Part shown: positions 6,094-26,623 of the stretch, in pieces
Numbering within the stretch: the first letter of the stretch is position 1
Layout of the letters: each line of letters starts with the position of its first letter
From: a bacterium
GTDB lineage: Bacteria > RBG-13-66-14
DNA: 34,490 nt
Reading direction: 5' to 3'
Assembly: GCA_035528375.1 (NCBI GenBank)
Contig: DATKYS010000007.1
Span: 1 to 34,490, forward strand
Notes under the pieces: model-generated
What the model was told of the DNA's origin: nothing
The model's database searches: none
Seen by the model: only the letters and a program-made list of their open reading frames with translations
Position numbers and translations under genes: made by a program

Positions 6094-6102
6094 GCGAGTG
6101 TT

Positions 6103-9688: not shown

Positions 9689-9749
9689 AGGTCTGAAAAT
9701 CCGTTTCAAGGACGGAAAAAGACGCCCGCCGGGGCTAAAGAGGTGTCCG

Positions 9750-10526: not shown

Positions 10527-10622
10527 CCGCCCGTCCACGCTCCGCGGCGTCGTAGCCGTAAAGTCGCATAAAGCCTGAATCTACCGTTGCCTGTAACAAA
10601 CCCCAACCTGGAGGTAAAGACA

Positions 10623-11834
10623 GTGCGAAAATTACTTGCCGTTCTCCTGGCCCTGACCTTCGCCGGCACGGCCCTGGCCGGCGTCACCGTCTTCGACGAC
10701 GACTTCTTCAAGGTCAAGCTCGGCGGCTACTTCCAGTTCCGTTGGGACTACGATCTCCAGACCAACGTCACCGACGGCAACGCCTTCGGCGAGCTCTACT
10801 TCAAGCGCGCCAAGCTGGAAGTTTCCGGCGACATCGGCGACTACTGGTCCTTCAAGCTCGTCGAGCAGGTCAAGGACCGCGCACACTTCAAGGGCCTTTC
10901 CCTGGACACAACGGACTACGACATTGATGACGACGGCACCCCCGATTTCACCTACGTCTCCGGCGTCACCGCCAGCACCGCGAAATACCTGCAGTGGGAG
11001 CTCGAGGAGCTCTACCTGTCCTTCAAGCCGGTGGACCTGTTCAACCTGCGATTCGGTCTGCAGAAGCCGGCCGGCTCCTGGACCTACATGCTGTCCAGCT
11101 CGGCGCAGCCCTTCATTGACCGGCCCCAGCACGACGCCTGGTCGCCCGATTTCCAAGAGGGCGTCGTGGCCGGGCTCAATATCGCCGGCGCGGAGAAAGG
11201 CACCAGTTACCTGAACCTTCAGCTCGGCGTCTGGGAGAACGACAGAGCCGGCTGGGGCGGAGAAACGGGCCCGGGGAACGACCCCGACCTCACCGACATC
11301 AACTTCTCCGTCTACGCCGACAGTTCCTTCATGAAGGGTATCCACCTGGGCGGCTTCCTCTACATGGCCAACGACCAGGACCTCGGATACATGGATCCCG
11401 AAACCGATGCGGATGTCTACACCGGTGTCACGGGCTACGGCGCCCACGCCAACTACACCCACGATTACTTTTACGCGGGCCTCGAGTACGTCGGCGGGAG
11501 CATCGGCGTGTCCAGCTCCAAGGACGCCGACGGCGGCTCCGTTGACGCGGGCGACGACTTCGGCGTCATGGGCCTGGCCGTGGACCTGTTCGGACGGCTG
11601 CCCGTGGGCGGCGACTTCCTCGATTTGGTGGAGATCGGCGGCCGTTACGACATGAACGACACCGATGACACCCTGGACAACAACGGCATGAACCAGTTGA
11701 CCATCGGCGCCAACCTCTTCTTCACCAAGGATCACTACGCGCTGTTGCAGCTCAACTACATCATGCAGATGCCCGAGGACTCCGACGTGGACGGCAACTC
11801 CTGGATCAAGGCGCAGTTGCAGCTCAAGTTCTAA
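10623..11834 (+). CDS. Phosphate-selective porin of the OprP/OprO family
   Basis: The 403-residue product has a signal peptide (MRKLLAVLLALTFAGTALA) and then alternating beta strands with the family opening KVKLGGYFQFRWDYD, FKRAKLEVSGDIGDYWSFKLV and VDLFNLRFGLQKPAGSWTY, ending in the outer-membrane C-terminal signature QLQLKF. OprP-type porins pass phosphate or pyrophosphate through the outer membrane. Placement right after pstSCAB-phoU makes a phosphate role likely. GTG 10623 is chosen because GGAGG lies 8 bases ahead and the signal peptide starts there; an upstream in-frame ATG at 10587 would add a non-signal leader. No strong terminator follows. Confidence 0.85.
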   Translation: MRKLLAVLLALTFAGTALAGVTVFDDDFFKVKLGGYFQFRWDYDLQTNVTDGNAFGELYFKRAKLEVSGDIGDYWSFKLVEQVKDRAHFKGLSLDTTDYDIDDDGTPDFTYVSGVTASTAKYLQWELEELYLSFKPVDLFNLRFGLQKPAGSWTYMLSSSAQPFIDRPQHDAWSPDFQEGVVAGLNIAGAEKGTSYLNLQLGVWENDRAGWGGETGPGNDPDLTDINFSVYADSSFMKGIHLGGFLYMANDQDLGYMDPETDADVYTGVTGYGAHANYTHDYFYAGLEYVGGSIGVSSSKDADGGSVDAGDDFGVMGLAVDLFGRLPVGGDFLDLVEIGGRYDMNDTDDTLDNNGMNQLTIGANLFFTKDHYALLQLNYIMQMPEDSDVDGNSWIKAQLQLKF

Positions 11835-12129
11835 AAAAAGGACCGGGGCTCACGGCTGTAAAGGGGTTCCCCTCTGCACATAAAGGACGACCGGTTTAAT
11901 GATTGAACTCCTTGGGGCGGTCGGTCCGACGCGTGATCAAGGGAGACAAGACACCCTCGTAGGGGCCGACCTTTAGGTCGGCCCGCGGGCGGGTCTGAAG
12001 ACCCGCCCCTACGTCATCCAACCTGCCTGGATGTCGCTTTCGTTTGTGCGAGATAATCAACTTCCCGGGTTGATAACGGGGCTGCGGAGTAATAGAATCG
12101 TGTCCCCTCACCCGTCAGGAGGTCAGCCC
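11835..12129. other. Intergenic region carrying the composite repeat
   Basis: No gene is seen. It carries the composite-hairpin repeat at 11958-12013 and, at its right end, the AGGAGG that serves the next gene. Confidence 0.6.
11958..12013. repeat. Composite-hairpin intergenic repeat, copy A
   Basis: Two perfect 9-base hairpins stand side by side: GGGCCGACC/GGTCGGCCC (11963-11984, loop TTTA) and GGGCGGGTC/GACCCGCCC (11987-12008, loop TGAA). They are enclosed by an outer inverted repeat CGTAGGGG/CCCCTACG. Copy B at 27763-27830 has the same parts in the opposite orientation and a partial copy lies at 1-20. Confidence 0.75.
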
Positions 12130-12747
12130 TTGCACTACGTCCTCATAGAATGCGGCGTCAAGTGCCCCAAGTGCGACAACCCCGTCCCGCTCAACGGGCC
12201 CTGGGAGATCGCCCACTGCGCCCACTGTCAGGCGGACTTCGATGTCCCCCACGAGTACTGGATAGACATCTTCAAGGACATCCTGGACGACGAGAAATCC
12301 GGGGAGCTCAAGACGGGCGAGGGCAGCAACTCGACCATCTGGGGCACGTTCAACACGACGCTCATGTACGCGAACCAGGTTCCGTACTGCCTGAAATGCG
12401 GGACCGATTTCCCGGAGGCCGCCTTCAAGCCGGACGCGGGCACGCTAGCGTGCGCCAAGTGCGGCGAGACCGTGGAAACCGCCCCGCCGCCGGGCTGGTT
12501 TTCGAGCCTCAACCCCCGGCTCCTGGTGGGCGCGTCGCTGAGCGTCGCCGACGAGGTGCAGCCCGAGGGCGTCTCGGGCCCCGTGGCCTTCACCTGCCCC
12601 AAGTGCGGCGGCGCCCTGGTCGTGGACGGCAAGGACCGCCTGGTGCCCTGCCAGTTCTGCAACGTGCAGGTGTACCTGCCCGACGACCTCTGGCTCAGGC
12701 TCCACCCGGCGAAGTCCAAGTCCAGGTGGTTCGTGGTTTTCGAGTAG
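12130..12747 (+). CDS. Protein with three zinc-ribbon modules, function unknown
   Basis: The 205-residue product has six CxxC knuckles that pair into three zinc ribbons: C12/C15 with C30/C33, C87/C90 with C108/C111, and C156/C159 with C174/C177. Between the first two lies an acidic helical stretch (YWIDIFKDILDDE). Such proteins bind zinc and often nucleic acid or protein partners. No known family is recognised. TTG 12130 is chosen as start because AGGAGG lies 8 bases ahead and homology-like content starts at once; there is no ATG nearby. It stands alone, about 100 bases before larA. Confidence 0.7.
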   Translation: MHYVLIECGVKCPKCDNPVPLNGPWEIAHCAHCQADFDVPHEYWIDIFKDILDDEKSGELKTGEGSNSTIWGTFNTTLMYANQVPYCLKCGTDFPEAAFKPDAGTLACAKCGETVETAPPPGWFSSLNPRLLVGASLSVADEVQPEGVSGPVAFTCPKCGGALVVDGKDRLVPCQFCNVQVYLPDDLWLRLHPAKSKSRWFVVFE

Positions 12748-12849
12748 TTTGAGGGCTTACCGGGCGGACGCCGGTTTGCATTGACAAACCGGACGCTCTA
12801 TCGTAGTGTCCCCCCGGTTTAGCTCTTTCGATTTTCCACCGAGGCGGTC

Positions 12850-14109
12850 GTGGAGATTCGGGTCCCTTGGGGAAAAGGGGAGCAGACGGTCGCGCTCGAA
12901 CCTGACCGGCTGGCCGGTGTCGTTCACCCGAACGAGGTTGATTCGGGCGACGAATTCGAAACGCTGCGCCGCGCCCTGGCCGACCCCATCGGCACCGTTC
13001 CCTTCGGCGAGTTCATCGGCGCCGGCGGAGAGATTCTCTTCATCGTCAACGACGGCACGCGGCCCACCCCCACCGCCAAGGTCCTCGATATAATCGAGGG
13101 GGACCTGGCCGGCATTGAGCCCTCCTTCATCATAGCCACCGGCGTCCACCGCGGTCCCACCGAGGAGGAGCTCCGCTTCATCTTCGGCCGCCACCTCGAG
13201 CGTTTCCGCGACCGGATCCACGTCCACGATTCCAAGGCCGACGCCGAGATGGTCCACATCGGCACCTCGTCGTCTGGCACCGAGATGTGGGTCAACCGCC
13301 TGGGGGTGGAGGCGGACCGGCTGGTCATCATCGGTTCCGTCGAGCCCCACTACTTCGGCGGCTACACGGGCGGCCGCAAGGCCTTCCTGCCGGGCATCGC
13401 GTCTTACCTGACAATCGAACAGAACCACAAATTCGCTATGAATATCCGGGCTCAGGCGCTGGCCCTCGACGGCAACCCGGTCCACGAGGACATGATTGAC
13501 GCCCTGAAGGTCATCGCCGAAAAACCGATTTTCTCCATCCAGACCGTCCTGGACCGCGACCGCAAAATATACGCCGCCACCGCCGGGCACATCCACGAAT
13601 CCTTCTACGCCGCCATCGAACGGGCCAACGAGGTCTTCTGCGTAGAGATTCCCGCCAAGGCCGACGTGGTGGTCAGCGTCGCTCCATACCCCATGGACGT
13701 GGACCTCTACCAGTCCCAGAAGGCCCTGGACAACGGCAAGCTGGCCCTGGCCGAGGGGGGTATACTCATCCTGGTGTCCAAGTGTCGCACCGGAATCGGC
13801 CACGAGACGTTCTACGAGCTCCTGAGCTCCTGCTCCACCCCGAAAGAGGTGCTGGCCCGCATCGAGCGGGGCTACGTCCTGGGGTACCACAAGGCGGCCA
13901 AGATGGCGGAAATCGGCCTCTGGGCGGAGATGTGGGCGGTCACCGAGCTCCCCGACGACGTGGTGCACAAGTGCCTCATGCGCCCCTTCGCCACGTTGCA
14001 GGCGGCGGTGGACGAGGCCCTTTGCGCCAGGGGGCCCGACGCGAAGGTGCTCTTCCTCGTGGACGGGAGCATCACCGTGCCCCTCATCCCCGACGGCAAA
14101 CCTTCCTGA
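12850..14109 (+). CDS. larA: LarA-family nickel-pincer 2-hydroxyacid racemase
   Basis: This 419-residue protein matches the LarA (DUF2088) family, which racemises lactate or related 2-hydroxyacids with a nickel-pincer nucleotide. Key residues are in place: NDGTRPTP (68-74), H100 in ATGVHRG, H167 in VEPHYFGGY, K177 in GGYTGGRKAFLPG, and H193. The H167-K177 spacing (10) and K177-H193 spacing (16) equal those of H174, K184 and H200 in Lactiplantibacillus LarA. The family also holds malate racemases, and a malic enzyme follows at 14443, so lactate or malate are both plausible substrates; the downstream GlcD-type oxidase favours lactate. Cofactor genes larB, larC and larE are not in the window. 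The start is GTG 12850. Confidence 0.85.
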   Translation: MEIRVPWGKGEQTVALEPDRLAGVVHPNEVDSGDEFETLRRALADPIGTVPFGEFIGAGGEILFIVNDGTRPTPTAKVLDIIEGDLAGIEPSFIIATGVHRGPTEEELRFIFGRHLERFRDRIHVHDSKADAEMVHIGTSSSGTEMWVNRLGVEADRLVIIGSVEPHYFGGYTGGRKAFLPGIASYLTIEQNHKFAMNIRAQALALDGNPVHEDMIDALKVIAEKPIFSIQTVLDRDRKIYAATAGHIHESFYAAIERANEVFCVEIPAKADVVVSVAPYPMDVDLYQSQKALDNGKLALAEGGILILVSKCRTGIGHETFYELLSSCSTPKEVLARIERGYVLGYHKAAKMAEIGLWAEMWAVTELPDDVVHKCLMRPFATLQAAVDEALCARGPDAKVLFLVDGSITVPLIPDGKPS

Positions 14110-14322
14110 CGGCGGGATCGTGTGGGCGGGTTCCGCACCGGCCTTCAGACGGACTCGTGCGAGCTCCTGACGGCGGGGTCGAGGGAACGGGACTCGATCG
14201 TTTAAAGTGTTAAATCGGCGGTTTGCGCCCCAGTCGGCCTTACACCTGAGTACTTTCATCCAGTTGGGTCGAAGATGAAATCCCGGTCTGCGGGGTACAG
14301 AAAGCTTTACGTTTCACTCTCG

Positions 14323-14366
14323 ACACCCGGACCGACGGCGAGCCGCTCGGGAGGGTGTGTTTTTTT
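14323..14366 (+). terminator. Intrinsic terminator between larA and maeB
   Basis: ACACCC (14323-14328) pairs with GGGTGT (14353-14358), with inner pairs CCGA/TCGG and CGG/CCG, and a run of seven T follows. It would end the larA transcript about 210 bases after its stop, or act in a maeB leader. Confidence 0.65.
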
Positions 14367-14402
14367 CGTTTCCCGAATTCCGGGGACGGCGGAAGAGTAA
14401 CC

Positions 14403-14428
14403 GGCGCAGGGCGTACCCTGTGCCTTTT
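14403..14428 (+). terminator. Hairpin plus T-run directly ahead of the maeB ribosome-binding site
   Basis: GGCGCAGGG/CCCTGTGCC (one wobble pair, loop CGTA) is followed by TTTTAATT, then GGAGG and ATG 14443. A terminator this close to a start suggests an attenuator or a translation-blocking hairpin rather than the end of another gene. Confidence 0.5.
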
Positions 14429-14442
14429 AATTGGAGGAACCG

Positions 14443-16683
14443 ATGGCCATCAGCCGCGAGGAGGCTCTCGAGTACCACAGCCGGGGCAGGGCCGGCAAGA
14501 TAGAGGTCGTTTCCACCAAGCGCTGCCGGACTCAGCGCGACCTGTCCCTGGCGTACACCCCCGGGGTGGCGATACCGTGCCTGGATATTGAAAAGGAGCC
14601 GGAGAAGGTCTACGACTACACGGCGAAGGGCAACCTGGTGGCCGTCGTCTCGAACGGCACGGCGGTACTCGGGCTGGGCGACATCGGCCCCGCCGCGGGG
14701 AAGCCGGTGATGGAGGGCAAGGGCGTCCTCTTCAAGCGCTTCGCCGACATTGACGTCTTCGATCTGGAGGTTGACTCCAAGAACCCCGAAGAGATCATCC
14801 GCACCGTGGAGATGCTCGAGCCGACCTTCGGGGGGATCAACCTGGAGGACATCGCCGCCCCCGACTGCTTCGTCATCGAGGAGGAGCTGAAGAAGCGGAT
14901 GAGCATCCCGGTCTTCCACGACGACCAGCACGGGACGGCCATCATCTCAGGAGCGGCGCTCCTGAACGCCCTGGAGCTCAACGGGAAGGACATCGGCCAG
15001 GTCCGGCTCGTGGTCTCGGGCGCCGGGGCCGCCGGTATCGCCTGCACCAAGTACTACATCACCCTCGGGGTGGACCCGGCGAAGATCCTCCTTCTCGACT
15101 CGAAGGGGGTCATCTACGCCGGTCGCAAGGAGGGGATGAACCCGTACAAGGAGCAGTTCGCCGTTGAGACCGACCGGCGCACCCTCGCCGACGCCATGGA
15201 GGGGGCGGACGTCTTCCTGGGCCTCTCCACCGCCGGGCTGGTGACCCAGGACATGGTGCGGTCCATGGCCTCCGATCCGATCATCTTCGCCATGGCCAAC
15301 CCGGACCCCGAGATAACCTACCCGGACGCGAAGGCGGCCCGCGACGACGTAATCATGGCCACCGGCCGCTCCGACTATCCGAACCAGGTGAACAACGTCC
15401 TGGGGTTCCCGTTCATCTTCCGCGGTGCCCTGGACGCCCGCGCCACCGACATCAACGAGGCCATGAAGCACGCCGCCACCAAGGCCCTGGCCGACCTGGC
15501 CAAGGAGGACGTGCCCGATTCGGTCTGCAAGGCCTACGGCGTCGAGCGGCTGAGCTTCGGGCGGGAGTACCTCATCCCCAAGCCCTTCGATTACCGCGTG
15601 CTCATCTGGGAGGCCTCCGCCGTCGCCCAGGCGGCTTTGGAGTCCGGCGTCGCCCGGGTCAAGCTGGATATTGACGAGTATAAAGAACGGCTCGAAGCCC
15701 GTCTGGGCAAGAGCCGCGAGATCATGCGCCTCGTGATTCACAAGGCCCGTAAACATCCCGCCCGCCTGGTTTTGCCCGAGGGCGAGGACGACCGCATCCT
15801 GCGCGCCAGCGCCATCATCGTGGGCGAGGGAATCGCCAGGCCCATCCTCCTCGGCCGGCGCTCCGTCATCGAGGAACACATCCGTGAGCTGGGCCTGGAC
15901 CTGGGGGACGTGGAAATCATCAACCCGCCCGAATCCCCCAATCTGGACTCCTACGCCGAGGAGTATTTCAAGCTCCGGCAGCGGAAGGGCAGAGCCCTGG
16001 CCCACTGCCGAGAGTTGTTGCAGCTGGGGCGTGTGTACGGGCCGATGATGGTCCGGATGGGCGACGCCGACAGCGTGCTGACGGGGATAACCACCTACTA
16101 TCCGGAGACGATCCGTCCGGCCATCAGGGTCATCGGCACCGATGACGGATTCGGTATCGTGGCCAGCATGTTCATGCTCATCTTCAAAGAGAAGGTGTTT
16201 TTCTTCGCCGACACCACCGTGAACATTGATCCCAGCGCCGAGGAGTTGGCGGGCATCGCCCAGCTCACCGCCAAGTATGTCAAGAAGCTCGGCTACGAAC
16301 CTCGTATCGCCATGCTCTCCTTCTCCAACTTCGGTAGCGTGGCCCACGAGAAAACCCTCAAGGTGAAGCGGGCAGTGGAGATTGTCAAGAGGGCTGTCCC
16401 CGACCTGAAGATTGACGGGGAGATGCAGGCGGACACGGCGGTGATGCCCGAGCTCCTCGAGAGCACCTACCCCTTCGCCGACCTGCGAGGTGGGGCGAAC
16501 GTCTTGATCTTCCCGGACCTGCAATCGGCCAACATCGCCTACAAGTTGTGCTCGAAGCTCGGCGGCGCCGAGGCCATCGGGCCGATCCTGATGGGGCTGA
16601 ATAAATCCGCCCACATCCTACCCCACAGCTGTGAGGTGGACGACGTGGTGAACATGGCGGCCATCGCCGTGGCCGAGATTTAG
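14443..16683 (+). CDS. maeB: NADP-dependent malic enzyme, MaeB type
   Basis: The 746-residue enzyme decarboxylates malate to pyruvate. Domains in order: malic N-terminal domain (about 1-160; [27 protein letters not shown]), NAD(P)-binding domain (about 160-400; [20 protein letters not shown]), and a C-terminal phosphotransacetylase-like domain (about 425-746; [44 protein letters not shown]) that in MaeB acts as an acetyl-CoA-responsive regulatory module. Length equals the family norm. ATG 14443 follows GGAGG; an in-frame TTG at 14431 is part of that same ribosome-binding site. Product pyruvate would feed the same pool as the neighbouring hydroxyacid oxidase. Confidence 0.93.
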
Positions 16684-16710
16684 GTAAAGAAACCGGGGTC
16701 CTGCCAAAAC

Positions 16711-16749
16711 TGACGAGTCGGTCTCCCTTCGGGGTTGGCCGGCTCGTCA
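16711..16749 (+). terminator. Stem-loop after maeB
   Basis: TGACGAGTCGG pairs with CCGGCTCGTCA (one wobble), enclosing CCC-TTCG-GGG. There is no proper T-run, so termination would be weak or factor-assisted. Confidence 0.4.
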
Positions 16750-16819
16750 CGTTCTTGGCGCAGGTTTGGGACGTTGTTTGGATGCCAATTGAGAATTTGT
16801 ATATTTAAATGGTGACGTA

Positions 16820-16847
16820 TTGACTAACCTCTCGGGTTTTGTTTAAG
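16820..16847 (+). promoter_or_regulatory. Tentative promoter ahead of the glcD-like gene
   Basis: TTGACT (16820-16825), 16 bases, TTTAAG (16842-16847), within a strikingly AT-rich 150-base stretch. The -10 box is only four of six, so the call is weak. Confidence 0.3.
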
Positions 16848-16890
16848 TGACATTACCTTTGTTTTATGTGGTTTTTTTTGTGCAAACCTA

Positions 16891-16908
16891 GTGTGAATTT
16901 ATTCACAC
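16891..16908. promoter_or_regulatory. CRP/FNR-family binding site
   Basis: GTGTGAATTTATTCACAC: 8-base inverted arms around a 2-base centre. It contains TGTGA-N6-TCACA, the full consensus of enterobacterial CRP; other Crp/Fnr-family members bind related sequences. It ends 39 bases before the ATG of the glcD-like gene. With so short a distance to the gene it could repress from downstream of the tentative promoter at 16820, or activate a promoter not recognised here. Confidence 0.6.
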
Positions 16909-16947
16909 AAAGGATGGATGAGTATTTGCTTTCGCTAAGGAGCATCC

Positions 16948-18384
16948 ATGAATCCCAAGGACGTGGAACGGTTTCAGCAAATAGTCGGTAGAGAGAATGC
17001 GCGCACCAGTCCGGCCGATCTGTACGTCTACGGCTCCGATGCATCGGTGCATTTCGCGAGACCCGATATCGTCCTCATGCCCGGTAACATAGATGAGATC
17101 CAGGATATCCTTCGCTACGCCAACTCGTGGGAGATTCCGGTCGTGCCCCGCGGGGCCGGAAGCGGCATGTCGGGTCAGGCCGTCCCTATCGACGGCGGAA
17201 TCGTCCTCGACATGAAACGGATGAATCACATCCTGGAAATCCGGCCCCAGGATATGCTCTGCCGTGTTGAGGCCGGGGTGGTGGACGACGACCTGAACCG
17301 GGCGCTGAAGCCCTACGGATTCATGTATCCGCCGGCACCGGCTTCGAGCCGGATCGCCACCATCGGCGGCGAGATAGCCAACAACGCCAGCGGCGTCCGC
17401 TCCGTCAAATACGGGGCGACCCGCGACTCGGTCCTCGGGTTGAAGGTCGTGTTGGCGTCCGGCAAGCTGGTTGATATGGGCACACTCACCCACGTGGAAG
17501 CCACCGGGTATCAGCTCGCGCGCCTGATAGTCGGTTCCGAGGGAACCCTGGCCGTGATCGTCGAGGCCACACTGAAAATCGTCCCCATCCCGAAATACCG
17601 CTGCCTCGGTATCGCATGTTACAACAGGCTCGAAGACGCCGGCCACGCCATCACCGAGATCATCTGCAGCAGATGCTCGGCTTCCATGATCGAATTGATG
17701 GACAACGTCGCAATCACGGCGGTCAACGAGACACTGAAGTTGGGTCTCCCCGATGTGGAGGCAATCATCCTCTTCGAGGCCGACGGTATGTTGCAGGTGA
17801 CGGTTGACGGGGAGCTCGACGCTATAAAGGCTGCATGTGAGAAGCACAACGGCTTCAACATCGAGACGAGTTGCGACCCCGATGAACGAAGCCGGATCTT
17901 CGCCGGTAGGAAAAAGCTGTTTGCGTCGCTGTCGCGCTACAAGAAAGGTTACGCCTGCACCTCCCTGGCCGACGACATGGCGGTGCCCTATTCCAAGATG
18001 GCCGAGATGGCCGGAAAGATACACGAGGTAGGCGACCGGTACAACGTGATCATGACCGCCTACGGTCACTGCGGCTCGGGATGCATGCACGCCAAGATCC
18101 TCATGGACCCGACGAAGAAGAGCCAATGGGAAGACGCCAAGCGCGCCGTGGCCGAAATCTACGAGTACGTCAACTCCGTGGGCGGCACCACTTCGGCCGA
18201 GCACGGAATCGGTCTGTCGAAGGCGCCCGCCTTCAAGCTGGAGAAGGCCGACAGCCTGGAGCTGATGCGGGCCATCAAGCGGGTTTTCGACCCCAACAAC
18301 ATCCTCAACCCCCACAAGCTCTTTGATGCCCCCGACGATTGGCTGACGGCAACAGAACTCAGGTATCCCGTAGAAAGCAGGTGA
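16948..18384 (+). CDS. FAD-linked 2-hydroxyacid dehydrogenase, GlcD/D-lactate dehydrogenase type
   Basis: This 478-residue flavoprotein belongs to the GlcD/Dld family that oxidises D-lactate or glycolate to the 2-oxoacid. The FAD-binding PCMH domain spans about 38-215 (VVPRGAGSGMSGQ, DMKRMN, GGEIANNASGVRSVKYG, VGSEGTLAVI) and the substrate/FAD-oxidase C domain about 216-470 (AYGHCGSGCMHAKI, SAEHGIG, FDPNNILNPHK). AAGGAG lies 6 bases before ATG. It is followed after 4 bases by the GlcF-like iron-sulfur gene, the usual electron partner. It has no signal or membrane segment, so it is cytoplasmic. Third positions appear richer in A/T than in the mvh genes. D-lactate is the best substrate guess given larA nearby. 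Confidence 0.85.
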   Translation: MNPKDVERFQQIVGRENARTSPADLYVYGSDASVHFARPDIVLMPGNIDEIQDILRYANSWEIPVVPRGAGSGMSGQAVPIDGGIVLDMKRMNHILEIRPQDMLCRVEAGVVDDDLNRALKPYGFMYPPAPASSRIATIGGEIANNASGVRSVKYGATRDSVLGLKVVLASGKLVDMGTLTHVEATGYQLARLIVGSEGTLAVIVEATLKIVPIPKYRCLGIACYNRLEDAGHAITEIICSRCSASMIELMDNVAITAVNETLKLGLPDVEAIILFEADGMLQVTVDGELDAIKAACEKHNGFNIETSCDPDERSRIFAGRKKLFASLSRYKKGYACTSLADDMAVPYSKMAEMAGKIHEVGDRYNVIMTAYGHCGSGCMHAKILMDPTKKSQWEDAKRAVAEIYEYVNSVGGTTSAEHGIGLSKAPAFKLEKADSLELMRAIKRVFDPNNILNPHKLFDAPDDWLTATELRYPVESR

Positions 18385-18388
18385 TGGC

Positions 18389-19447
18389 GTGCAGAAAAAG
18401 TACCTGAAGGACTGGGAAAAAGAGCTGAACATTTGTATACGTTGCGCCTACTGCTTCGAGGGTTGCCCTGTCTTCAAGGATCAGGGTTGGGAGGTGGACG
18501 GAGCAAGGGGGAAACTGGTGCTCGCTTACGGGCTTCTCACGGGCGAGCTCGAGCCCTCGGAGTACGTCGCCCTAAAGATATACCAGTGTACCTACTGCAG
18601 GGACTGTGTCGAGAGATGCTCGGCCAACGTGTCCGTGCCGGATATCTTGACCGCCGCCAGAGCGGACCTGAAGGATGCCGGATTCACTTACACTGCTCAT
18701 GAAAAGCTTCTGGATACAATCAAAGAGAGCGGCAACATATTCGGAAAGACGTTAAAGGCGCACGCAGAGGAGGGCGAGGTCCCGGTGCTGCTCGGATGCC
18801 GCCTCCTGGAAAGGAGCGATGATGCCGAGCGTTACCTCGAGATACTCAAAAAACTCGGCATAAAGCCTACCGTCGTGGAGGACGAAATTTGCTGCGGGAT
18901 GCCGTTCGGGGTCCTGGGCTATAAGGATGGTTTAGCCGAGCACAAAAAGAGGTTCAAGGAGAGATTCCCGTACAAGAGGTTCATCTGCCTCTGCACCACG
19001 TGCGTTTTCTTCATCAGAAACGCATACCCCGAGCTCGAACCTATCTACGTGATAGATGAGATCTACAAGAGGCTTCCCGACGCTGCCGTCAAGAATCTCG
19101 GGGTGAAAACGACCTACCATGACCCTTGTAATGTCTGCCGGGGCATGAGGATGGTGGAGGAGCCACGCGATATCATGAGCCGGATCGGTGTAGAGCTGGT
19201 CGAGTTCCCGACAAACCGTATGGGAGCTGAGTGCTGCGGCGGCGGCGGCGGCGTGCTCGTAACCGACAACCCGCTTTCCACAAGGCTGGCTGAAAAGAGG
19301 ATTCGTCAGGCCGGCGAGCTCGGGGTGGAGAACCTGGTCACCCTGTGTCCCACGTGTGAGTTCAACCTGGGCAACGCAGCCGTGTCCGCGGGAGTCGAAA
19401 TAAATGTCAGGAACCTGTTAGACCTCATCTGGGAGGCTTTGCAGTAG
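18389..19447 (+). CDS. GlcF/HdrD-like iron-sulfur oxidoreductase
   Basis: The 352-residue protein has two [4Fe-4S] ferredoxin motifs (C16/19/22/26 and C67/70/73/77) and then two CCG domains. The first has C137, CCG at 168-170 and C202/C205; the second has C247, CCG at 282-284 and C320/C323. CCG domains in HdrB/HdrD bind special clusters, and the same layout occurs in GlcF and LutA/LldE proteins. It probably takes electrons from the GlcD-like flavoprotein encoded 4 bases upstream. The start is GTG 18389 after a weak AGG. Its first 100 residues are closely similar to those of the protein encoded at 19616 (for example RGKLVLAYGLLT against RGKLLLIYGLLT). Confidence 0.85.
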   Translation: MQKKYLKDWEKELNICIRCAYCFEGCPVFKDQGWEVDGARGKLVLAYGLLTGELEPSEYVALKIYQCTYCRDCVERCSANVSVPDILTAARADLKDAGFTYTAHEKLLDTIKESGNIFGKTLKAHAEEGEVPVLLGCRLLERSDDAERYLEILKKLGIKPTVVEDEICCGMPFGVLGYKDGLAEHKKRFKERFPYKRFICLCTTCVFFIRNAYPELEPIYVIDEIYKRLPDAAVKNLGVKTTYHDPCNVCRGMRMVEEPRDIMSRIGVELVEFPTNRMGAECCGGGGGVLVTDNPLSTRLAEKRIRQAGELGVENLVTLCPTCEFNLGNAAVSAGVEINVRNLLDLIWEALQ

Positions 19448-19615
19448 GGGTCTGTGGGGCTCGGGAGTTGAGTAACCGTCTGAACCACACCCGCTGAGTT
19501 TTATTTGGAACGTGATTAATTCTGGATACATCATCAACCACCACAATCCGAGTGGCGCCGCCGACGGACGGGTGACGGCGATCAGGCTTGGATATCCGGT
19601 GGGATAGGAGACGTC
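19448..19615. other. Gap between the glcDF-like pair and the hydrogenase genes
   Basis: 168 bases with an AT-rich centre (about 19498-19545). No clear promoter or terminator is found, so it is open whether one transcript covers both gene groups. Confidence 0.4.
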
Positions 19616-20167
19616 ATGGGCGCGGTATACAAGCGATTACAGAACTGGATGACGGAACTCAGCGTCTGCATCCGCTGCGGCTACTGTTACGAGCTCTGCC
19701 ACCTCTACAAGTCGGGCGCCTTCGAGACCGACACGCCGCGGGGCAAGCTCCTGTTGATCTACGGCCTCCTTACATACGCCCTGGAGCCCGATGGGGACAT
19801 GGTGGAGAAAATCGTCCAGTGTTTCTACTGCAAGAACTGTGAGCGGAGCTGCTCGGCCAAGGTTTCACTCACCGAAATCTTCACCGACGCCAAGGCCGAC
19901 TTCCTCGACGCGGGGTTCGATTTCCGGGGCCTGGCGGCCCGCACCGACGACGATCTGTGCAGCAGATGCCGGGTTTGCCAGGCGATATGCAAGAACGAGG
20001 CGATCAGCTTCGACGAGGAGGGGAAGAGGGTAGACGTCATCAAATGTGAGGGCTGCGGCGTCTGCGCGGCCACCTGCCCCTCGAACGCGATTGTCATGGT
20101 CGAGGGGTTCGGCGTCACCCGGGGTGAGCTCTCCGAGACGATCCGGGCGTTCCTGGAGGAGGTGTAG
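19616..20167 (+). CDS. HdrC-like protein with four [4Fe-4S] motifs
   Basis: The 183-residue protein carries C18/21/24/28 and C69/72/75/79 in an HdrC/GlcF-type N-terminal module, then a second ferredoxin pair C115/118/121/125 and C144/147/150/154. Four [4Fe-4S] clusters can be predicted. Ordinary HdrC has only the first two, so this looks like HdrC fused to a two-cluster ferredoxin. It lies directly before mvhD (one base between stop and start) and so probably links the hydrogenase delta subunit to an electron donor or acceptor. ATG 19616 follows AGGAGA. Cytoplasmic. Confidence 0.8.
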   Translation: MGAVYKRLQNWMTELSVCIRCGYCYELCHLYKSGAFETDTPRGKLLLIYGLLTYALEPDGDMVEKIVQCFYCKNCERSCSAKVSLTEIFTDAKADFLDAGFDFRGLAARTDDDLCSRCRVCQAICKNEAISFDEEGKRVDVIKCEGCGVCAATCPSNAIVMVEGFGVTRGELSETIRAFLEEV

Positions 20168-20168
20168 G

Positions 20169-20603
20169 GTGGGCGTGACCACTACCGAAGGTAAACCTGC
20201 GGCCGAGGATAAAAGCGTGCAGCCGAAGGTCCTGGTCTTCAGCTGCAACTGGTCAACCTACCCGGGCCTCCAGCTCTCCCGGCTGGAGGAGTCCGGAACC
20301 GTTTCCGAGCCCATCATCACGATGTGCACCGGACGGCTGGACCCCGAGCTGATTCTGGAGGCCTTCTCCCGGGGCGCCTGGGGCGTCTTCGTGGCCGGAT
20401 GCCCGCCCGACGAGTGCGAGCACGACGGTAACTACAAGACCCGCCGGCGGATTTTGCTCCTCAAGAAAACGCTCGGTCAGTTGGGCGTCCTGCCCTCCCG
20501 GCTGACCCTGGAGTGGGTTTCCACGGGCGAGTCGGCGAAGCTCGCGAAGCTGGTGGGCGACTTCACCGCGAGGATGGCCCAACTGGGGCCTCAAAGGAGA
20601 TGA
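20169..20603 (+). CDS. mvhD: Methyl-viologen-reducing hydrogenase delta subunit MvhD
   Basis: The 144-residue product matches MvhD, the small [2Fe-2S] protein that passes electrons between the MvhAG hydrogenase and heterodisulfide reductase. Family landmarks are VFSCNWSTYPG, MCTGRLDPELILEAF, GVFVAGCPPDECEHDGNYKTRRR and LEWVSTGE. Cysteines are C26, C53, C78 and C83. The usual opening FCCNWC reads FSCNWS here, so two family cysteines are replaced by serine. GTG 20169 has GGAGGAGG 7 bases ahead. It lies between the HdrC-like gene and mvhG. Confidence 0.88.
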   Translation: MGVTTTEGKPAAEDKSVQPKVLVFSCNWSTYPGLQLSRLEESGTVSEPIITMCTGRLDPELILEAFSRGAWGVFVAGCPPDECEHDGNYKTRRRILLLKKTLGQLGVLPSRLTLEWVSTGESAKLAKLVGDFTARMAQLGPQRR

Positions 20604-20606
20604 ACG

Positions 20607-21608
20607 ATGGTGAAGCCTGATGCGGGCCCGAAGCCCAAAGTGGCGTTTTACTGGTGCGCCTCCTGTGGCGGGTGCGAGGAGGCGGTGGTGGACCTCGCCG
20701 AGGACATCCTCACGGTGGTCGGCGCGGTGGACATCGTCTTCTGGCCCGTGGCGCTGGATTTCAAGAAATCGGACGTGGAGGCCCTCGCCGACGGGGAGGT
20801 TGCGGTCAGCTTCATCAACGGCGCCGTCCGCACCTCGGAGCAGGAGGAGATGGTCGAGCTCCTGCGGAGGAAATCGGGGCTGGTCGTGGCCTTCGGCACC
20901 TGCGCCCATCTGGGCGGCATACCCGGCCTGGCCAACTTCCACGACCGCCGGACCATCTTCGAGCGGGTGTACCTGGAAGCCCCCTCCAACGCCAACCCCC
21001 GGGGCGTCCTCCCGCAGACGAGGAGCACCGTTGACGGCAAGGAGCTCACCCTGCCCGAGTTCCACGACACGGTCCGGACCCTGGACCAGGTGATAGACGT
21101 GGACTACTACCTGCCGGGTTGCGCCCCGCCGCCCGACCTGATCCTCGGGGCGGTCACCGCCATCCTGGAGGGGAAGCTGCCCGAGAAGGGCGCCGTGCTG
21201 GCCCCGGACAAGTCGCTCTGCGACACCTGCCCCCTGAACGACTCCAAGCCTGAGAAGGTCTCCCTGGCGGAGTTCAAGCGTCCGCACCAGATTCTGGCGG
21301 ACCCCGAGAAGTGCTATCTGGCCCAGGGGCTCATCTGTCACGGGCCGGCCACCCGCTCCGGCTGCGGCGAGCGCTGCATCAACGCCAACATGCCCTGCCG
21401 CGGTTGCTTCGGCCCCACACCGGGCGTGCGGGACCAGGGGGCGAAAATCCTCTCCTTCGTGGCCTCCATCGCGGGCCTGGAGGGCGAGGAGAAGATGACC
21501 GACGAGGAGGTCGGGCGGCTCATCGGGCAGATTGACGACCCGGCGGGGCTCTTCTACTTCTACAGCCTGCCCTCCTCGCACATGAAGCGGAAGAACTTAT
21601 CAACCTAA
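20607..21608 (+). CDS. mvhG: F420-non-reducing [NiFe] hydrogenase small subunit MvhG
   Basis: The 333-residue small subunit carries three Fe-S clusters from the active site to MvhD. Proximal-cluster cysteines are seen in WCASCGGCEEAVVDL, GTCAHLGGIPG and LPGCAPPPDLI. The C-terminal half holds the other cluster ligands (CDTCPLN, CYLAQGLICHG, SGCGERCINANMPCRGCFGP). It has no Tat signal, as expected for cytoplasmic group 3c enzymes. It starts 3 bases after mvhD, behind AAGGAG, and the large subunit follows after 14 bases. Confidence 0.92.
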   Translation: MVKPDAGPKPKVAFYWCASCGGCEEAVVDLAEDILTVVGAVDIVFWPVALDFKKSDVEALADGEVAVSFINGAVRTSEQEEMVELLRRKSGLVVAFGTCAHLGGIPGLANFHDRRTIFERVYLEAPSNANPRGVLPQTRSTVDGKELTLPEFHDTVRTLDQVIDVDYYLPGCAPPPDLILGAVTAILEGKLPEKGAVLAPDKSLCDTCPLNDSKPEKVSLAEFKRPHQILADPEKCYLAQGLICHGPATRSGCGERCINANMPCRGCFGPTPGVRDQGAKILSFVASIAGLEGEEKMTDEEVGRLIGQIDDPAGLFYFYSLPSSHMKRKNLST

Positions 21609-21622
21609 ATAAAGGCCGCGCC

Positions 21623-23107
21623 ATGGCTCAGAAGATAACCATTGATCCGATCACCCGTCTGGAGGGTCACGGCAAGATAGAGATCTTCCTCGACGACCGG
21701 GGCGATGTGGACCGGGCCTTCCTGCAGGTTCCCGAGCTCCGGGGCTTCGAAAAGTTTTCCGAGGGGCGCCCGGCCGAGGAGATGCCGCGGATAACGCCGA
21801 AAATCTGCGGCGTCTGCCCCACGGCCCACCATATGGCCTCGGGCAAGACGCTGGACGACCTCTACAAGGTCGAGCCCCCGCCGGCGGCCAGGAAAATCCG
21901 GGAGCTGGTGAACTCGGCCTTCATGGCCGAAGACCACGCCCTGCACTTCTTCTTCCTCGGCGGCCCCGATTTCATCGTCGGTCCCGCGGCGCCCAAAGGT
22001 CTGCGCAACATACTCGGCGTCCTCGAGAAGGTCGGGCTCGACGCCGGCAGGACCGTCATCGGCATGCGCAAGCGCCTGCGCGAAATCATCGCCAAGCAGG
22101 GCGGGCGGGTCATCCACCCGGTGTGCAACCTGCCGGGCGGCGTCTCCAAGGGCGTCACCCCCGAAGACCGCCGGGAGTACATCCAGACCGGGAAGGACGC
22201 CGTAGAGTTCGCCCAGTTCACCCTGGGGGCCTTCGCCGACATCGTTCTGGCCGACAAGGACTACGTGGACGTCATCGTCGGCGACTTGTACCGCCATGAG
22301 ACCTACTACATGGGGCTGGTGGATTCCCAAAACCGGGTGAACTTCTACGACGGCGATATCCGCGTCGTGGACCCCTCGGGCGCCGAGTTCGCAAAATTCA
22401 AGCCCCGCGAGTACCTGGACCACATCGCCGAACACGTGGAGCCCTGGAGCTACATCAAGTTCCCGTACCTGAAGAACGTGGGCTGGAAGGGCTTCGTGGA
22501 CGGCAAGGACTCGGGCGTGTATCGGGTCGCCCCACTGGCGCGCCTGAACGCGGCCGACGGCATGGCCACACCCCTGGCCCAGGGCGAGTACGAGAAGCTC
22601 TACGAGGCTTTCGGCGGCAAGCCGGCCCACAACACCCTGGCTTACCACTGGGCGCGGCTGATCGAGCTTCTGTACGCCGCCGAGCGGCTGCTGGAGCTGG
22701 CCACCGACGAGGAGATTCTCGACCCCAACGTCCGCACCCTGCCCACCGAGATCCCCACCTCCGGGGTGGGCGTGGTGGAGGCCCCGCGGGGCACCCTTTT
22801 CCACCACTACGAGACCGACGAGCGGGGAATCATTAAAAAGGCCAACCTCATCGTGGCCACGGTGAACAACTCCGCCGCCATGTGCATGTCCATCGAGAAG
22901 GCGGCCCGGGGGCTCATCAAGGGCGGAAAGGTGGACGACGGCCTCTTGAACCAGGTGGAGATGGCCTTCCGCGCCTACGACCCCTGTCTGGCCTGCGCCA
23001 CCCACTCCCTGCCGGGGAAGACGCCCCTGGAGGTCGTCATCCGCTCGGAGGACGGGGCGGTTCTGGAAACCTTGCGCAGTAGCTACACCCCTCTCCCCGG
23101 TCTGTAG
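21623..23107 (+). CDS. mvhA: F420-non-reducing [NiFe] hydrogenase large subunit MvhA
   Basis: The 494-residue catalytic subunit has both nickel-iron ligand motifs: C62-G-V-C65 in TPKICGVCPTAHH and D453-P-C455-L-A-C458-A-T-H461. A 33-residue tail after H461 is the expected peptide removed by a maturation protease; neither that protease nor Hyp maturation genes are in the window. TRLEGHGKIEIFLD is the family N-terminal motif. With mvhD and mvhG it makes a group 3c hydrogenase, normally bound to HdrABC for flavin-based electron bifurcation, but no hdrA or hdrB is present here. A 9-base hairpin follows the stop. Confidence 0.93.
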   Translation: MAQKITIDPITRLEGHGKIEIFLDDRGDVDRAFLQVPELRGFEKFSEGRPAEEMPRITPKICGVCPTAHHMASGKTLDDLYKVEPPPAARKIRELVNSAFMAEDHALHFFFLGGPDFIVGPAAPKGLRNILGVLEKVGLDAGRTVIGMRKRLREIIAKQGGRVIHPVCNLPGGVSKGVTPEDRREYIQTGKDAVEFAQFTLGAFADIVLADKDYVDVIVGDLYRHETYYMGLVDSQNRVNFYDGDIRVVDPSGAEFAKFKPREYLDHIAEHVEPWSYIKFPYLKNVGWKGFVDGKDSGVYRVAPLARLNAADGMATPLAQGEYEKLYEAFGGKPAHNTLAYHWARLIELLYAAERLLELATDEEILDPNVRTLPTEIPTSGVGVVEAPRGTLFHHYETDERGIIKKANLIVATVNNSAAMCMSIEKAARGLIKGGKVDDGLLNQVEMAFRAYDPCLACATHSLPGKTPLEVVIRSEDGAVLETLRSSYTPLPGL

Positions 23108-23365: not shown

Positions 23366-25132
23366 ATGAAGAAAACCGTCATCAACCTCCAGTCTATCCG
23401 GGAAACAGCGGTCAAGCTGGCGACCGACTTCTGCATCCTGTCGCGGCGCATCCTCCACTACGCCAACCTGGGCACACCCCGCGCGGACTTCCTCCGGGAG
23501 GTGTCCCGGATGCTGTTGGAGTTCTCGCACTGCGACGGCATCGAGCTGCGGATGCGGGACGGGGACCTGCACTACCGCTGGGAGGCGACCGACGGCGAAG
23601 GGGAGAATTACTCCTGCGAAAAGCTCTCGCCGGTGCTGAAGTGCTCAGGCAGGACGATCCCCTGCGTAGACAATGACTCGTGGATCGAGAAACTCTGCGG
23701 TGCGGTGATGTGCCGTCACGTGGACCCCGCCACCGATTGCATCAGCGCCGGGGGCAGCTTCTGGATCGGGAACACGGACCAACCGTTGAAGTGCCCGCCG
23801 GTCTTTTCGGAGCTGACCGTAGAGGAGCTGCGGGAGCTGACGGGGGGCTATCAGTCCGTGGCCTTCATCCCCTTCGAGCTGGAGGAGGAGAGCCGGGGTC
23901 TTCTGCAGCTCAAGAGCCGCCGGGTGAATTTCTTCACCCCCTCCACCATCGAGTTTTACGAGGGGCTGGCCGAGGCCCTGGGCGTGGCCGTGAGTGACCG
24001 CCGCGCCCAGTACGCCCTGCGCGAGCGCGTCAAGGAGCTCTCCTGCCTCTACGAGATAGACGAGCTCGTCCAGCAGCAGGGCGTCATGCTGGACGATCTG
24101 TTACAGGGGATAGTCGAGCTGATGCCGCCCGCCTGGCAGTACCCGGACATGGCTTCCGCCCGGCTGGTGGTGGACAAACGGAGCTACGAGAGCTCGAACT
24201 TCAACGACCAGGGGAGCTCCCTTCGCTCGGACATCGTGTGCGGCGACGAGGAACGGGGCTTCGTCGAGCTGGTCTACTCGGGCGGGGAGGACGTGCTGGA
24301 GACGGCGCTCTTCCTCGAAGAGGAGCACAACCTCATAGACAGCATCGCCCAGCACATCTCCATAATTCTCGAGCGTCGTCGGACCGAGGAGGACAAGCGC
24401 GTGCTGGAGGAGCAGTTGCGGCACGCCGACCGCCTGGCCACCATCGGGCAGCTCGGAGCGGGGGTCGCCCACGAGCTCAACGAGCCGCTGACCTCCATCC
24501 TCGGTTTCGCCCAGCTCTCGAAAAAGGCCCCCGACTTGCCCAACGCCGTGGGAGGCGACCTGGAGCGCATCATCAACTCCACCCTGCACGCCCGCGAAAT
24601 CGTCAAAAAGCTCCTCATCTTCAGCCGGCAGATGCCCACCCAGAAGTCCGAGGTCAACCTGTCCGCCGTCGCCGAAGAGGGGCTCTTCCTCCTGGATTCA
24701 CGGTGCGAGAAGCAGGGGATCCGGGTGGTCAAGCGGTTCGCCCCCAATCTTCCCCTGATTACCGCCGATCCCTCGCAGCTCCTGCAGGTGGTGGTGAACA
24801 TCGTGGTCAACGCCGTCCAGGCCATGCCGGACGGGGGGAAGCTCACCGTGGCGACCTACGCGGACGCCGATTCCGTCTACCTCGACATCGAGGACGCGGG
24901 CACGGGGATGTCACGGGAGACGGTGAAGAAAATCTTCATCCCCTTCTTCACCACCAAGGAGGTGGGGCACGGAACGGGGCTCGGCCTGCCGGTCGTGCAC
25001 GGCATCATCACCTCGCACGGAGGCGGGATAAAGGTCCATAGCGAGTTGGGCCGCGGGAGCCGTTTCATCATCGCCCTCCCCATAGCGGCGATGCCCTTCG
25101 GGGTGGAGAACCAGTGGGAGGGGCGTCCTTGA
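23366..25132 (+). CDS. Soluble GAF-domain sensor histidine kinase
   Basis: The 588-residue kinase has no membrane segment. A first GAF domain spans about 40-212 and contains seven cysteines between residues 84 and 143. A second GAF-like region spans about 222-335. A short coiled coil leads to the dimerisation/phosphoacceptor domain with H369 in GAGVAHELNEPLTSILG. The ATPase domain has N482 (NIVVNAVQAM), DIEDAGTGM, and GTGLGLPVV. It pairs with the NtrC-type regulator 141 bases downstream. The cysteine cluster in the sensor domain hints at redox or metal sensing, but related GAF domains can carry scattered cysteines without such a role. AGGAAAG precedes the ATG. Confidence 0.88.
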   Translation: MKKTVINLQSIRETAVKLATDFCILSRRILHYANLGTPRADFLREVSRMLLEFSHCDGIELRMRDGDLHYRWEATDGEGENYSCEKLSPVLKCSGRTIPCVDNDSWIEKLCGAVMCRHVDPATDCISAGGSFWIGNTDQPLKCPPVFSELTVEELRELTGGYQSVAFIPFELEEESRGLLQLKSRRVNFFTPSTIEFYEGLAEALGVAVSDRRAQYALRERVKELSCLYEIDELVQQQGVMLDDLLQGIVELMPPAWQYPDMASARLVVDKRSYESSNFNDQGSSLRSDIVCGDEERGFVELVYSGGEDVLETALFLEEEHNLIDSIAQHISIILERRRTEEDKRVLEEQLRHADRLATIGQLGAGVAHELNEPLTSILGFAQLSKKAPDLPNAVGGDLERIINSTLHAREIVKKLLIFSRQMPTQKSEVNLSAVAEEGLFLLDSRCEKQGIRVVKRFAPNLPLITADPSQLLQVVVNIVVNAVQAMPDGGKLTVATYADADSVYLDIEDAGTGMSRETVKKIFIPFFTTKEVGHGTGLGLPVVHGIITSHGGGIKVHSELGRGSRFIIALPIAAMPFGVENQWEGRP

Positions 25133-25273
25133 CCCCGGGGCCGGGCCGTTTCATTTTTACGGCTGCGCCGTCGCAGTTACGTGGGAGGCGTTGCTTCGTT
25201 TCGAGTACCTTCCCGGAATGACCCGCGTGAACCTTGCACCCCATACCGACAACGAGGAAGTGAGCACCGACCT

Positions 25274-26623
25274 ATGGCCAAAGAAAGGATTCTGGTCGTT
25301 GACGATTCCCCGGAAACCCTGGAGATGCTCAGGCGTACCCTGACGGCCGAGGGGTACCGGGTTTTCACCGCCGGCAGCGTGGCCGAGGCCATTCGTCTCC
25401 TCGACGGAACCGCGGTGGACCTCCTGATAACGGACCTGCGCATGCCCAACGTGTCCGGGCTGGAGCTGGTGCGCCACGTGCGTGAGAACAACCGCGACAC
25501 CGAGGTGATGATGATTACCGGGTACGCGACGGTGGAGGGCGCGGTGGAGGCCATCAAGACCGGGGCGGAGGAGTACCTGCCCAAGCCCTTCACCGACGAG
25601 GAGCTCTTCGCCGCGGTGGGGCGGTCCCTGGAGAAGCTGAGCCTCCGTCGGGCGGCCTTCCGGCGCCGCCGCCTCGTGTCCCACGACGACTACGGCATCG
25701 TGGGCGAATCCAAGGTCATGAAGAAGGTTTTTGGGGCGATAGGAAAGGCCGCCGGGACCTCGGCCACCGTGCTCATCACCGGGGAGTCCGGCACCGGCAA
25801 GGAGCTCGTCTCCCGGGCCATCCACTACCACGGCTCGCGGGCGCAGGCCCCCTTCGTGCCGGTCAACTGCGGCGGCATACCCGAGGGGCTCCTGGAGAGC
25901 GAGCTCTTCGGGTACGTCAAGGGGGCCTTTACGGGGGCCAACCAGTCCAGGGCCGGGTTCTTCCAGACCGCCGAGGGCGGCACCATCTTCCTGGACGAGA
26001 TAAGCGAGACCTCCCTGGCCATGCAGGTGAAGCTGTTGCGGGTGCTGCAGGACAAAGAGGTCTCCATGGTCGGTTCGGCCAAGAGCCGGAAGATTGATAT
26101 CCGCATCCTCACCGCCACGAACAAGAACCTGCGCGTGCTGGTGGAGCGGGGCCACTTCCGCGAGGACCTCTACTACCGGCTGAACGTGATCAACATAGAC
26201 GTCCCGCCGCTGCGCGAGCGCGGGGAGGACGTGCTGCTGCTGGCGCGGCACTTCATCGGCAAGTACGCCCTGGAGCTCGACCGGTCCCGGGCGGATTTCA
26301 CCTCGGGCGCGCTGCGGGTTTTGGTCAACTACAGCTGGCCGGGCAACGTGAGGGAGCTGGAAAACCTGATTCAGCGCCTGATGGTCATGGTCGAGGGGGA
26401 GACGCTGGACGTGAGCGATCTGCCCTCCCACATGCGCTACAGCGTCCCGTCCGGCGGGCGCCTGAACCGCACCCTGGCGGAGGTCGAGGCCGAGTACATC
26501 AGGAACGTGCTGGAAGAGGTGGGTCAGAACAAGACCCGGGCGGCCAAGATTCTCGACATTGACCGGAAAACACTCCGGGAGAAGTTGAGCCGCAGTCGGA
26601 AGGTGGATGACGACGTAGTTTAA
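25274..26623 (+). CDS. NtrC-family sigma-54-dependent response regulator
   Basis: The 449-residue regulator has a receiver domain (D10-D11, phosphoacceptor D54 in LLITDLRMP, T82, K104), an AAA+ domain (Walker A GESGTGKE at about 170-177; GAFTGA at 217-222, which contacts sigma-54; Walker B GGTIFLDE at 235-242) and a Fis-type helix-turn-helix at the C-terminus (NKTRAAKILDIDRKTLREKL). It should be phosphorylated by the kinase encoded upstream and open sigma-54 promoters. The obvious target is the near-consensus sigma-54 site at 26797, upstream of the Cys-rich gene. ATG 25274 is chosen because the receiver domain starts there; the frame is open further upstream without domain content. GAGGAAG lies 15 bases ahead, rather far. 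Confidence 0.92.
   Translation: MAKERILVVDDSPETLEMLRRTLTAEGYRVFTAGSVAEAIRLLDGTAVDLLITDLRMPNVSGLELVRHVRENNRDTEVMMITGYATVEGAVEAIKTGAEEYLPKPFTDEELFAAVGRSLEKLSLRRAAFRRRRLVSHDDYGIVGESKVMKKVFGAIGKAAGTSATVLITGESGTGKELVSRAIHYHGSRAQAPFVPVNCGGIPEGLLESELFGYVKGAFTGANQSRAGFFQTAEGGTIFLDEISETSLAMQVKLLRVLQDKEVSMVGSAKSRKIDIRILTATNKNLRVLVERGHFREDLYYRLNVINIDVPPLRERGEDVLLLARHFIGKYALELDRSRADFTSGALRVLVNYSWPGNVRELENLIQRLMVMVEGETLDVSDLPSHMRYSVPSGGRLNRTLAEVEAEYIRNVLEEVGQNKTRAAKILDIDRKTLREKLSRSRKVDDDVV

Follow-up and report, generated by a model that had tools for sequence, protein, structure and literature searches.

We have analyzed a cluster of six genes (n to s) at 16948–23107 on the plus strand of a 34,490-nucleotide stretch of bacterial DNA (the window), which is the entire contig DATKYS010000007.1 of a genome of 2.63 Mb with an estimated completeness of 100%. 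The closest named relative of this source genome is Candidatus Coatesbacteria bacterium RBG_13_66_14 (G009). In order, the genes encode a GlcD-type flavoprotein (n), a CCG-domain protein (o), an HdrC-like iron-sulfur protein (p), MvhD (q), MvhG (r) and MvhA (s); the coordinates and Pfam domains agree with the order given in a first-pass annotation. Published descriptions of group 3c [NiFe] hydrogenases such as MvhADG pair them with the bifurcating flavoprotein HdrA. On balance we favor the reading that the cluster encodes a soluble 2-hydroxyacid:H2 oxidoreductase free of HdrA, acting most likely on D-lactate, in which electrons would pass along the series flavin adenine dinucleotide (FAD), p, MvhD, MvhG and MvhA.

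A series of redox centers without HdrA

Domain searches of the cluster genes revealed no HdrA, and GlcD is the only flavin subunit recognized there, as the first-pass annotation had held. An assembly gap was rejected as the cause of the missing HdrA; the cluster is contiguous, with regulators downstream and genes for a lactate racemase (LarA) and a malic enzyme (MaeB) upstream, and G009 is arranged alike. Domains and cysteine motifs support an unbroken wire from FAD through four [4Fe-4S] clusters and a [2Fe-2S] cluster to MvhG and MvhA.

The adaptor p contains exactly 16 cysteines in four CxxCxxCxxxC motifs, in keeping with its earlier description as an HdrC-like protein with four clusters. 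Residues 102–159 match the C terminus of HdrA (best match in the PDB 8rvu, 8.4e-14; HdrA2, 3.5e-12), the ferredoxin part corresponding to residues 566–627 of HdrA2 and q to residues 640–774. PorD-type ferredoxins score similarly on this part of p, so that the match to HdrA is not exclusive. Taken together, p and q resemble the C-terminal portion of an HdrA2-type protein that has lost its flavin domain and has an HdrC-like domain placed in front. Thermoplasmatota and Chloroflexota encode p and MvhD as a single fusion protein.

MvhD carries CNWS in place of the usual CNWC, with four cysteines retained. Every GlcD-linked MvhD compared has this serine (CNWS, in some cases CNYS, CDWS or CSWS), whereas other MvhD proteins have cysteine. 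GlcD keeps the GHxGxGxxH and EHG motifs; it has GHCGSGCMH where GHxGDGNxH is usual, near the metal site, and GHCGxGxxH is a signature peculiar to the GlcD clade to which n belongs. Distinct signatures in both proteins are as expected for a co-evolving unit. The nearest solved structures to n are glycolate oxidase (9qgz) and LctD (7qh2), and its match to the NCBIfam glcD model (2.1e-115) falls below the cut-off.

The nickel ligands of MvhA are intact (CGVC at L1 and DPCLACATH at L2), its C-terminal extension is present, and it matches the large subunits of 9sw2, 5odc and 7t2r. MvhG has three iron-sulfur clusters in a solved homolog. The window set thus combines the features that define group 3c: the L1 and L2 ligands of MvhA, an Mvh-type MvhG and an MvhD/FlpD subunit.

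A separate observation concerns MvhA of five other Coatesbacteria genomes (G003–G007; loci L127–L131 and L145), which has an in-frame TGA at the second cysteine of L1 (RICGV-TGA-P, TGCGGCGTTTGACCG). The TGA is identical in all five, and other Coatesbacteria have cysteine there. An inverted repeat, CTTCGC-AGGY-GCGAAG, lies about 17 nt past the TGA; it folds weakly better than shuffled sequences in one sequence, though not in G003. Selenocysteine is possible at this position, which differs from the L2 site known in NiFeSe hydrogenases.

The likely substrate

A LarA gene lies near GlcD in the window, in G009, in three other Coatesbacteria (G003, G004 and G006) and in two Chloroflexota genomes. 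It adjoins genes for GlcD-HdrD fusions in the three Coatesbacteria and GlcD-p-MvhD genes in the two Chloroflexota. In the window LarA (from 12850), GlcD (16948) and o (18389) occur together, with MaeB, fused to a phosphotransacetylase-type domain, between the first two; a LarA search of the genome itself gave a match at 12871–13440. The unit is therefore larger than the first-pass annotation held, LarA having been missed and MaeB also lying upstream. Because LarA lies near GlcD in the window and beside it in other Coatesbacteria and in Chloroflexota, lactate is the likeliest substrate of the window GlcD. LarA relatives that act on other hydroxyacids exist, and GlcD has GHCGxGxxH instead of GHxGDGNxH; for these two reasons lactate is a likely and not a settled substrate.

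In a different Coatesbacteria family (G004, locus L075, 121–11361) HdrA, MvhD, an FdhB-like protein, FNR, GcvH, LarA and a GlcD/HdrD fusion follow in series, so that a lactate racemase and dehydrogenase lie next to an HdrA set.

Recurrence in other genomes

In G009 the genes run LarA-MaeB-GlcD-p-q-r-s-kinase-NtrC, as in the window, with identities of 81–96% (LarA 95%, MaeB-like protein 89%, NtrC-type regulator 96%). In a further genome, G011, a contig that starts within the last part of p carries q-MvhG-MvhA-kinase, and a second contig carries LarA-MaeB; GlcD and most of p of this genome appear to fall in an assembly gap. A contig scan with p found 11 relatives: G009, eight Thermoplasmatota and two Chloroflexota. 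Of 390 Thermoplasmatota genomes surveyed, eight have p. A survey of 400 Chloroflexota genomes gave two positives, one of them additional, for a total of three in that phylum.

Those archaeal loci that are long enough read HdrA-HdrC-HdrB-MvhG-MvhA-HycI-MvhD-GlcD-[p-MvhD]-MvhD-FdhB-like-...-HdrA-HdrA; in one archaeal genome (G018) the two halves lie at separate places. The Chloroflexota module has pyruvate carboxylase, LarA, fumarase, HdrBC-like proteins and fumarate reductase as neighbors, and in one of these genomes MvhDGA is located elsewhere, next to Nfn-like genes. At two Chloroflexota loci (L026 and L117) GlcD-[p-MvhD]-LarA lies beside the fumarase, HdrBC-like and fumarate reductase genes, a set that possibly provides a lactate-to-fumarate electron path.

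Conserved glcD-mvh linkage in relatives had been put forward as a check on the first-pass proposal, and it is found across genomes and phyla. The linkage of GlcD to the hydrogenase is not due to chance: G009 retains it, at 81–95% identity, and so does G011 over the part that its contig covers, while GlcD-p-MvhD occurs in two further phyla, of which one is archaeal.

The same comparison changes the standing of o, which the first-pass annotation treated as part of the core. It is missing from G009, in which GlcD and p are about 120 bp apart, and in no archaeal or Chloroflexota locus compared does it lie between GlcD and p. Since these relatives have the GlcD-p-MvhD module without it, o is rejected as a core part and is an optional accessory. 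Its earlier label, GlcF/HdrD-like, is right in so far as o is an HdrD-like CCG protein, but GlcF is too narrow; o is of the GlpC/TfrB type with two CCG domains, and its best NCBIfam score is to TfrB. It is 39–43% identical to the HdrD half of the GlcD-HdrD fusions of other Coatesbacteria.

HdrA sets and a second hydrogenase in the source genome

FlpD occurs at four places in the source genome. Contig C77 carries HycI-MvhA-MvhG-MvhD-HdrA-NuoG/HdrA-NuoF/GltD-NuoE-HdrA-HdrB-HdrC at 1075–17712, a set that appears to encode a complex linked to NAD(P)H, H2 and Hdr and is kept at least partly in G009, G002 and G004. Contig C40 has HdrABC, MvhD and an FdhB-like protein without MvhGA, and C31 has HdrA-like proteins with one FlpD. 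Both types of hydrogenase coexist in three genomes (the source genome, G009 and G011), each type being orthologous across them. The window MvhGA probably serves a partner other than the HdrA/NuoEF-linked set, because that second type has its own MvhD (seen in G000 and G009). The first-pass proposal was held to fail if an hdrABC set elsewhere in the genome partnered this MvhADG; HdrA sets are indeed present on three contigs, but the one with a hydrogenase brings an MvhDGA of its own.

Origin of the cluster

In a midpoint-rooted tree the window GlcD falls in a clade with archaeal and Chloroflexota GlcD, apart from the Coatesbacteria GlcD-HdrD fusions (support 100/100). For MvhA, the window protein and the HdrA-linked proteins of its genus form one group, with support of 96/97 in a small tree and 88/91 in a larger one; all these trees have a small taxon sample. 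Acquisition of the hydrogenase together with GlcD from archaea is not favored, given this grouping of MvhA with Coatesbacteria HdrA-linked MvhA. On the simplest reading a GlcD-p-MvhD module joined a duplicated hydrogenase pair, and the module and MvhGA would have become neighbors in two ways, with HdrA in archaea and without it in Coatesbacteria.

Proposed mechanism and its energetics

In the mechanism that we propose, LarA would interconvert L- and D-lactate, and GlcD would transfer two electrons between D-lactate/pyruvate and FAD. The adaptor p would stand in for HdrA, its four [4Fe-4S] clusters, first HdrC-like and then ferredoxin-like, leading to the [2Fe-2S] cluster of MvhD; MvhG and the [NiFe] site of MvhA would then exchange electrons with protons and H2. 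In the source genome o could insert a CCG subunit between GlcD and p. With the HdrA flavin missing there would be no built-in bifurcation, and the enzyme would therefore mainly reduce 2-oxoacids with H2, or release H2 under strong H2 removal. The reaction should be reversible and near equilibrium; reduction of a 2-oxoacid by H2 would be easy, and lactate oxidation to H2 would proceed only at very low H2 and high lactate/pyruvate. The first-pass suggestion of ferredoxin as a third partner finds no support in the sequence, since GlcD is the sole flavin subunit recognized and no bifurcating flavin domain was found at the locus.

We hold a more specific version somewhat more tentatively. The cluster might be a soluble lactate:proton oxidoreductase dedicated to this one reaction, with an HdrC-ferredoxin adaptor in the place of HdrA, so that a group 3c hydrogenase passes electrons directly to and from the GlcD flavin and no bifurcation takes place; in Coatesbacteria it would have been built from the GlcD-p-MvhD module, which archaea and Chloroflexota also have, and from an MvhGA pair akin to the HdrA-linked hydrogenase of the same genome.

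A number of results weigh against a direct path between lactate and H2. The standard potential (E0′) of H2 is −414 mV. That of lactate is −190 mV (PMC5861303), and conversion of lactate into pyruvate and H2 is computed to cost about +43 kJ/mol under standard conditions. The required lactate/pyruvate ratio is about 370 at 1 Pa H2 (1e-5 bar) and about 37 at 0.1 Pa (1e-6 bar), again by computation. The HdrA sets on C40, C77 and C31 could dock in trans. In Thermoplasmatota the GlcD-p-MvhD module lies inside an HdrABC-MvhGA cluster, and in the Chloroflexota neighborhoods no hydrogenase was found near the module, which thus need not imply H2. Lastly, an AlphaFold model of a fused archaeal p-MvhD homolog was poor (predicted local distance difference test score 60) and was set aside. 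The first-pass idea of a direct path from 2-hydroxyacid to hydrogen accordingly stands in part: recurrence, a cluster free of HdrA and a LarA gene that favors lactate speak for it, and the HdrA sets of the genome and the setting of the Thermoplasmatota module speak against.

Alternative explanations

The foremost alternative, which we consider rather doubtful, is that GlcD-p-MvhD and MvhGA feed an HdrA encoded on C40, C77 or C31, lactate and H2 meeting in trans at its bifurcating flavin. The genome provides candidate HdrA sets, C40 being an HdrABC-MvhD-FdhB-like set without MvhGA; but all three contigs have their own FlpD or MvhD, and C77 its own MvhGA as well. The module does sit among HdrA genes in Thermoplasmatota, and in methanogens MvhAG and FdhAB share MvhD on HdrABC, with no requirement for co-localization of hdrABC (PMC6085437). 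Against docking of this kind, a conserved cysteine of HdrA-linked MvhD is replaced in the GlcD-linked form, and the HdrA-type ferredoxin part found ahead of MvhD in HdrA2-like proteins is already present in p.

It is unlikely that two separate enzymes share the locus, LarA-GlcD-o forming an ordinary lactate dehydrogenase and p-MvhD-MvhGA a hydrogenase for ferredoxin or another acceptor. LarA-GlcD-GlpC operons are known (PMC5910564), other Coatesbacteria have LarA next to a GlcD-HdrD fusion without p, and 168 bp separate o and p in the window. However, p directly follows GlcD in G009, where there is no o, and at the loci of archaea and Chloroflexota, too, GlcD is accompanied by p rather than by o.

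Very improbable is a GlcD flavin that itself bifurcates or confurcates, in which case ferredoxin would dock on the extra clusters of p, and H2 would be formed from lactate together with reduced ferredoxin. The clusters of p do outnumber those that a simple wire would require, and the C-terminal part of p is similar to ferredoxin domains of HdrA and of PorD type, but no lone GlcD-type flavin is known to bifurcate. Confurcation is the way in which LctD-EtfAB meets the same energetic difficulty (PMC5861303), but that complex also has the flavins of EtfAB; in the cluster neither an Etf gene nor a second flavin gene was recognized, and no EtfAB was found among the domain-searched cluster genes or neighbors, a genome-wide search not having been made.

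Gene organization and neighboring genes

The features are collected in Table 1. Intergenic gaps are short between n and o (4 bp), p and q (1 bp), q and r (3 bp) and r and s (14 bp), that between o and p being wider; q begins with GTG, 1 bp past the stop codon of p. A scan for sigma-54 promoter motifs from 12.8 to 23.1 kb gave nothing convincing.

Table 1. Genes of the cluster and its surroundings in the window
Feature	Position	Strand	Matches and remarks
LarA, nickel-pincer lactate racemase homolog	12850..14109	+	PF09861 1.4e-52, PF21113 2.4e-16
Malic enzyme fused to phosphotransacetylase-type domain (MaeB-like)	14431..16683	+	PF00390, PF03949, PF01515
n, GlcD-type FAD-linked 2-hydroxyacid dehydrogenase	16948..18384	+	PF01565 (FAD_binding_4), PF02913 (FAD-oxidase_C)
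o, HdrD/GlpC/TfrB-like, HdrC-like N terminus and two CCG domains	18389..19447	+	PF13183 (Fer4_8), 2x PF02754
p, HdrC-like two-cluster domain and two-cluster ferredoxin domain (adaptor)	19616..20167	+	two dicluster Fer4 regions
q, MvhD, [2Fe-2S] protein	20169..20603	+	PF02662 (FlpD) 1.7e-34; 5odc_D 8.9e-28
r, MvhG, small subunit	20607..21608	+	PF01058 (Oxidored_q6); 5odc_E 1.1e-62, nearly full length
s, MvhA, group 3c-type [NiFe] large subunit	21623..23107	+	NiFeSe_Hases; NCBIfam VhuA 7.6e-124, below cut-off
Histidine kinase, possible regulator	23366..25132	+	PF02518; adjoins cluster also in G009, G011
NtrC-type sigma-54 response regulator	25181..26623	+	PF00072, PF00158, PF02954; adjoins cluster also in G009

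Further from the cluster, translations read by eye show an ordinary phosphate-uptake set (PstS-like, two permeases, PstB-like and PhoU-like) followed by a porin-like protein at 6196–10526. At 29491–29994 lies a BcrAD_BadFG-type ATPase fragment of 167 amino acids that matches the C-terminal half of the model alone (125–271 of 271), a truncated or unusual activator.

Relation to known systems and significance

MvhADG has been described with HdrABC, with MvhAG and FdhAB competing for MvhD (PMC6085437). The window shares with the methanogen complex MvhA, MvhG and MvhD homologs, HdrC-like and HdrA-C-terminal-like ferredoxin parts and, in o, two CCG domains as in HdrB, though o itself is of the GlpC/TfrB type and absent from G009; it differs in having no HdrA flavin domain, GlcD as sole flavoprotein and an MvhD that lacks one conserved cysteine. 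Like the lactate dehydrogenases of LarA-GlcD-GlpC or GlcD/GlpC-fusion type, described alongside GlcD-EtfAB operons (PMC5910564), it has LarA, GlcD and a CCG partner, but the operon adds p-MvhD-MvhGA, and the close relative G009 lacks o. LctBCD of Acetobacterium woodii (7qh2) has a GlcD/LctD-type subunit and the same task, oxidation of lactate to a low-potential acceptor; the window has instead a hydrogenase and an Fe-S adaptor, with no EtfAB at the locus.

The Thermoplasmatota HdrABC-MvhGA clusters (L027, L029, L030, L032 and L033) resemble the window in GlcD (64–67% identity), p (50–53%), MvhD (49–56%), MvhG (55–57%) and MvhA (56–61%), but they have several HdrA genes, HdrBC and FdhB-like proteins, and p fused to MvhD. 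The C77 set, which is like A. mobile HydABCSL (7t2r) plus Hdr, has an MvhA 64% identical to that of the window; where C77 has HdrA, NuoE, NuoF, a NuoG-like protein, HdrBC and HycI, the window has GlcD and p. Pairs of HdrD with GlcD are on record for Korarchaeia, Bathyarchaeia and Methanomethylicia (PMC10667645).

The literature searched, which excluded most subscription journals, gave no account of a GlcD-MvhADG cluster free of HdrA, and that on Coatesbacteria hydrogenases and Thermoprofundales lactate metabolism yielded nothing on GlcD-hydrogenase linkage. The gene content suggests a direct, so far undescribed, electron exchange between lactate and H2 through this cluster. If this is true, it would show MvhD to be a modular plug, and one could then test how organisms manage to oxidize lactate to H2 with no confurcation, or whether they form lactate from H2. 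Anaerobes would gain a direct link between lactate and H2, relevant to syntrophy and to H2 cycling in sediments.

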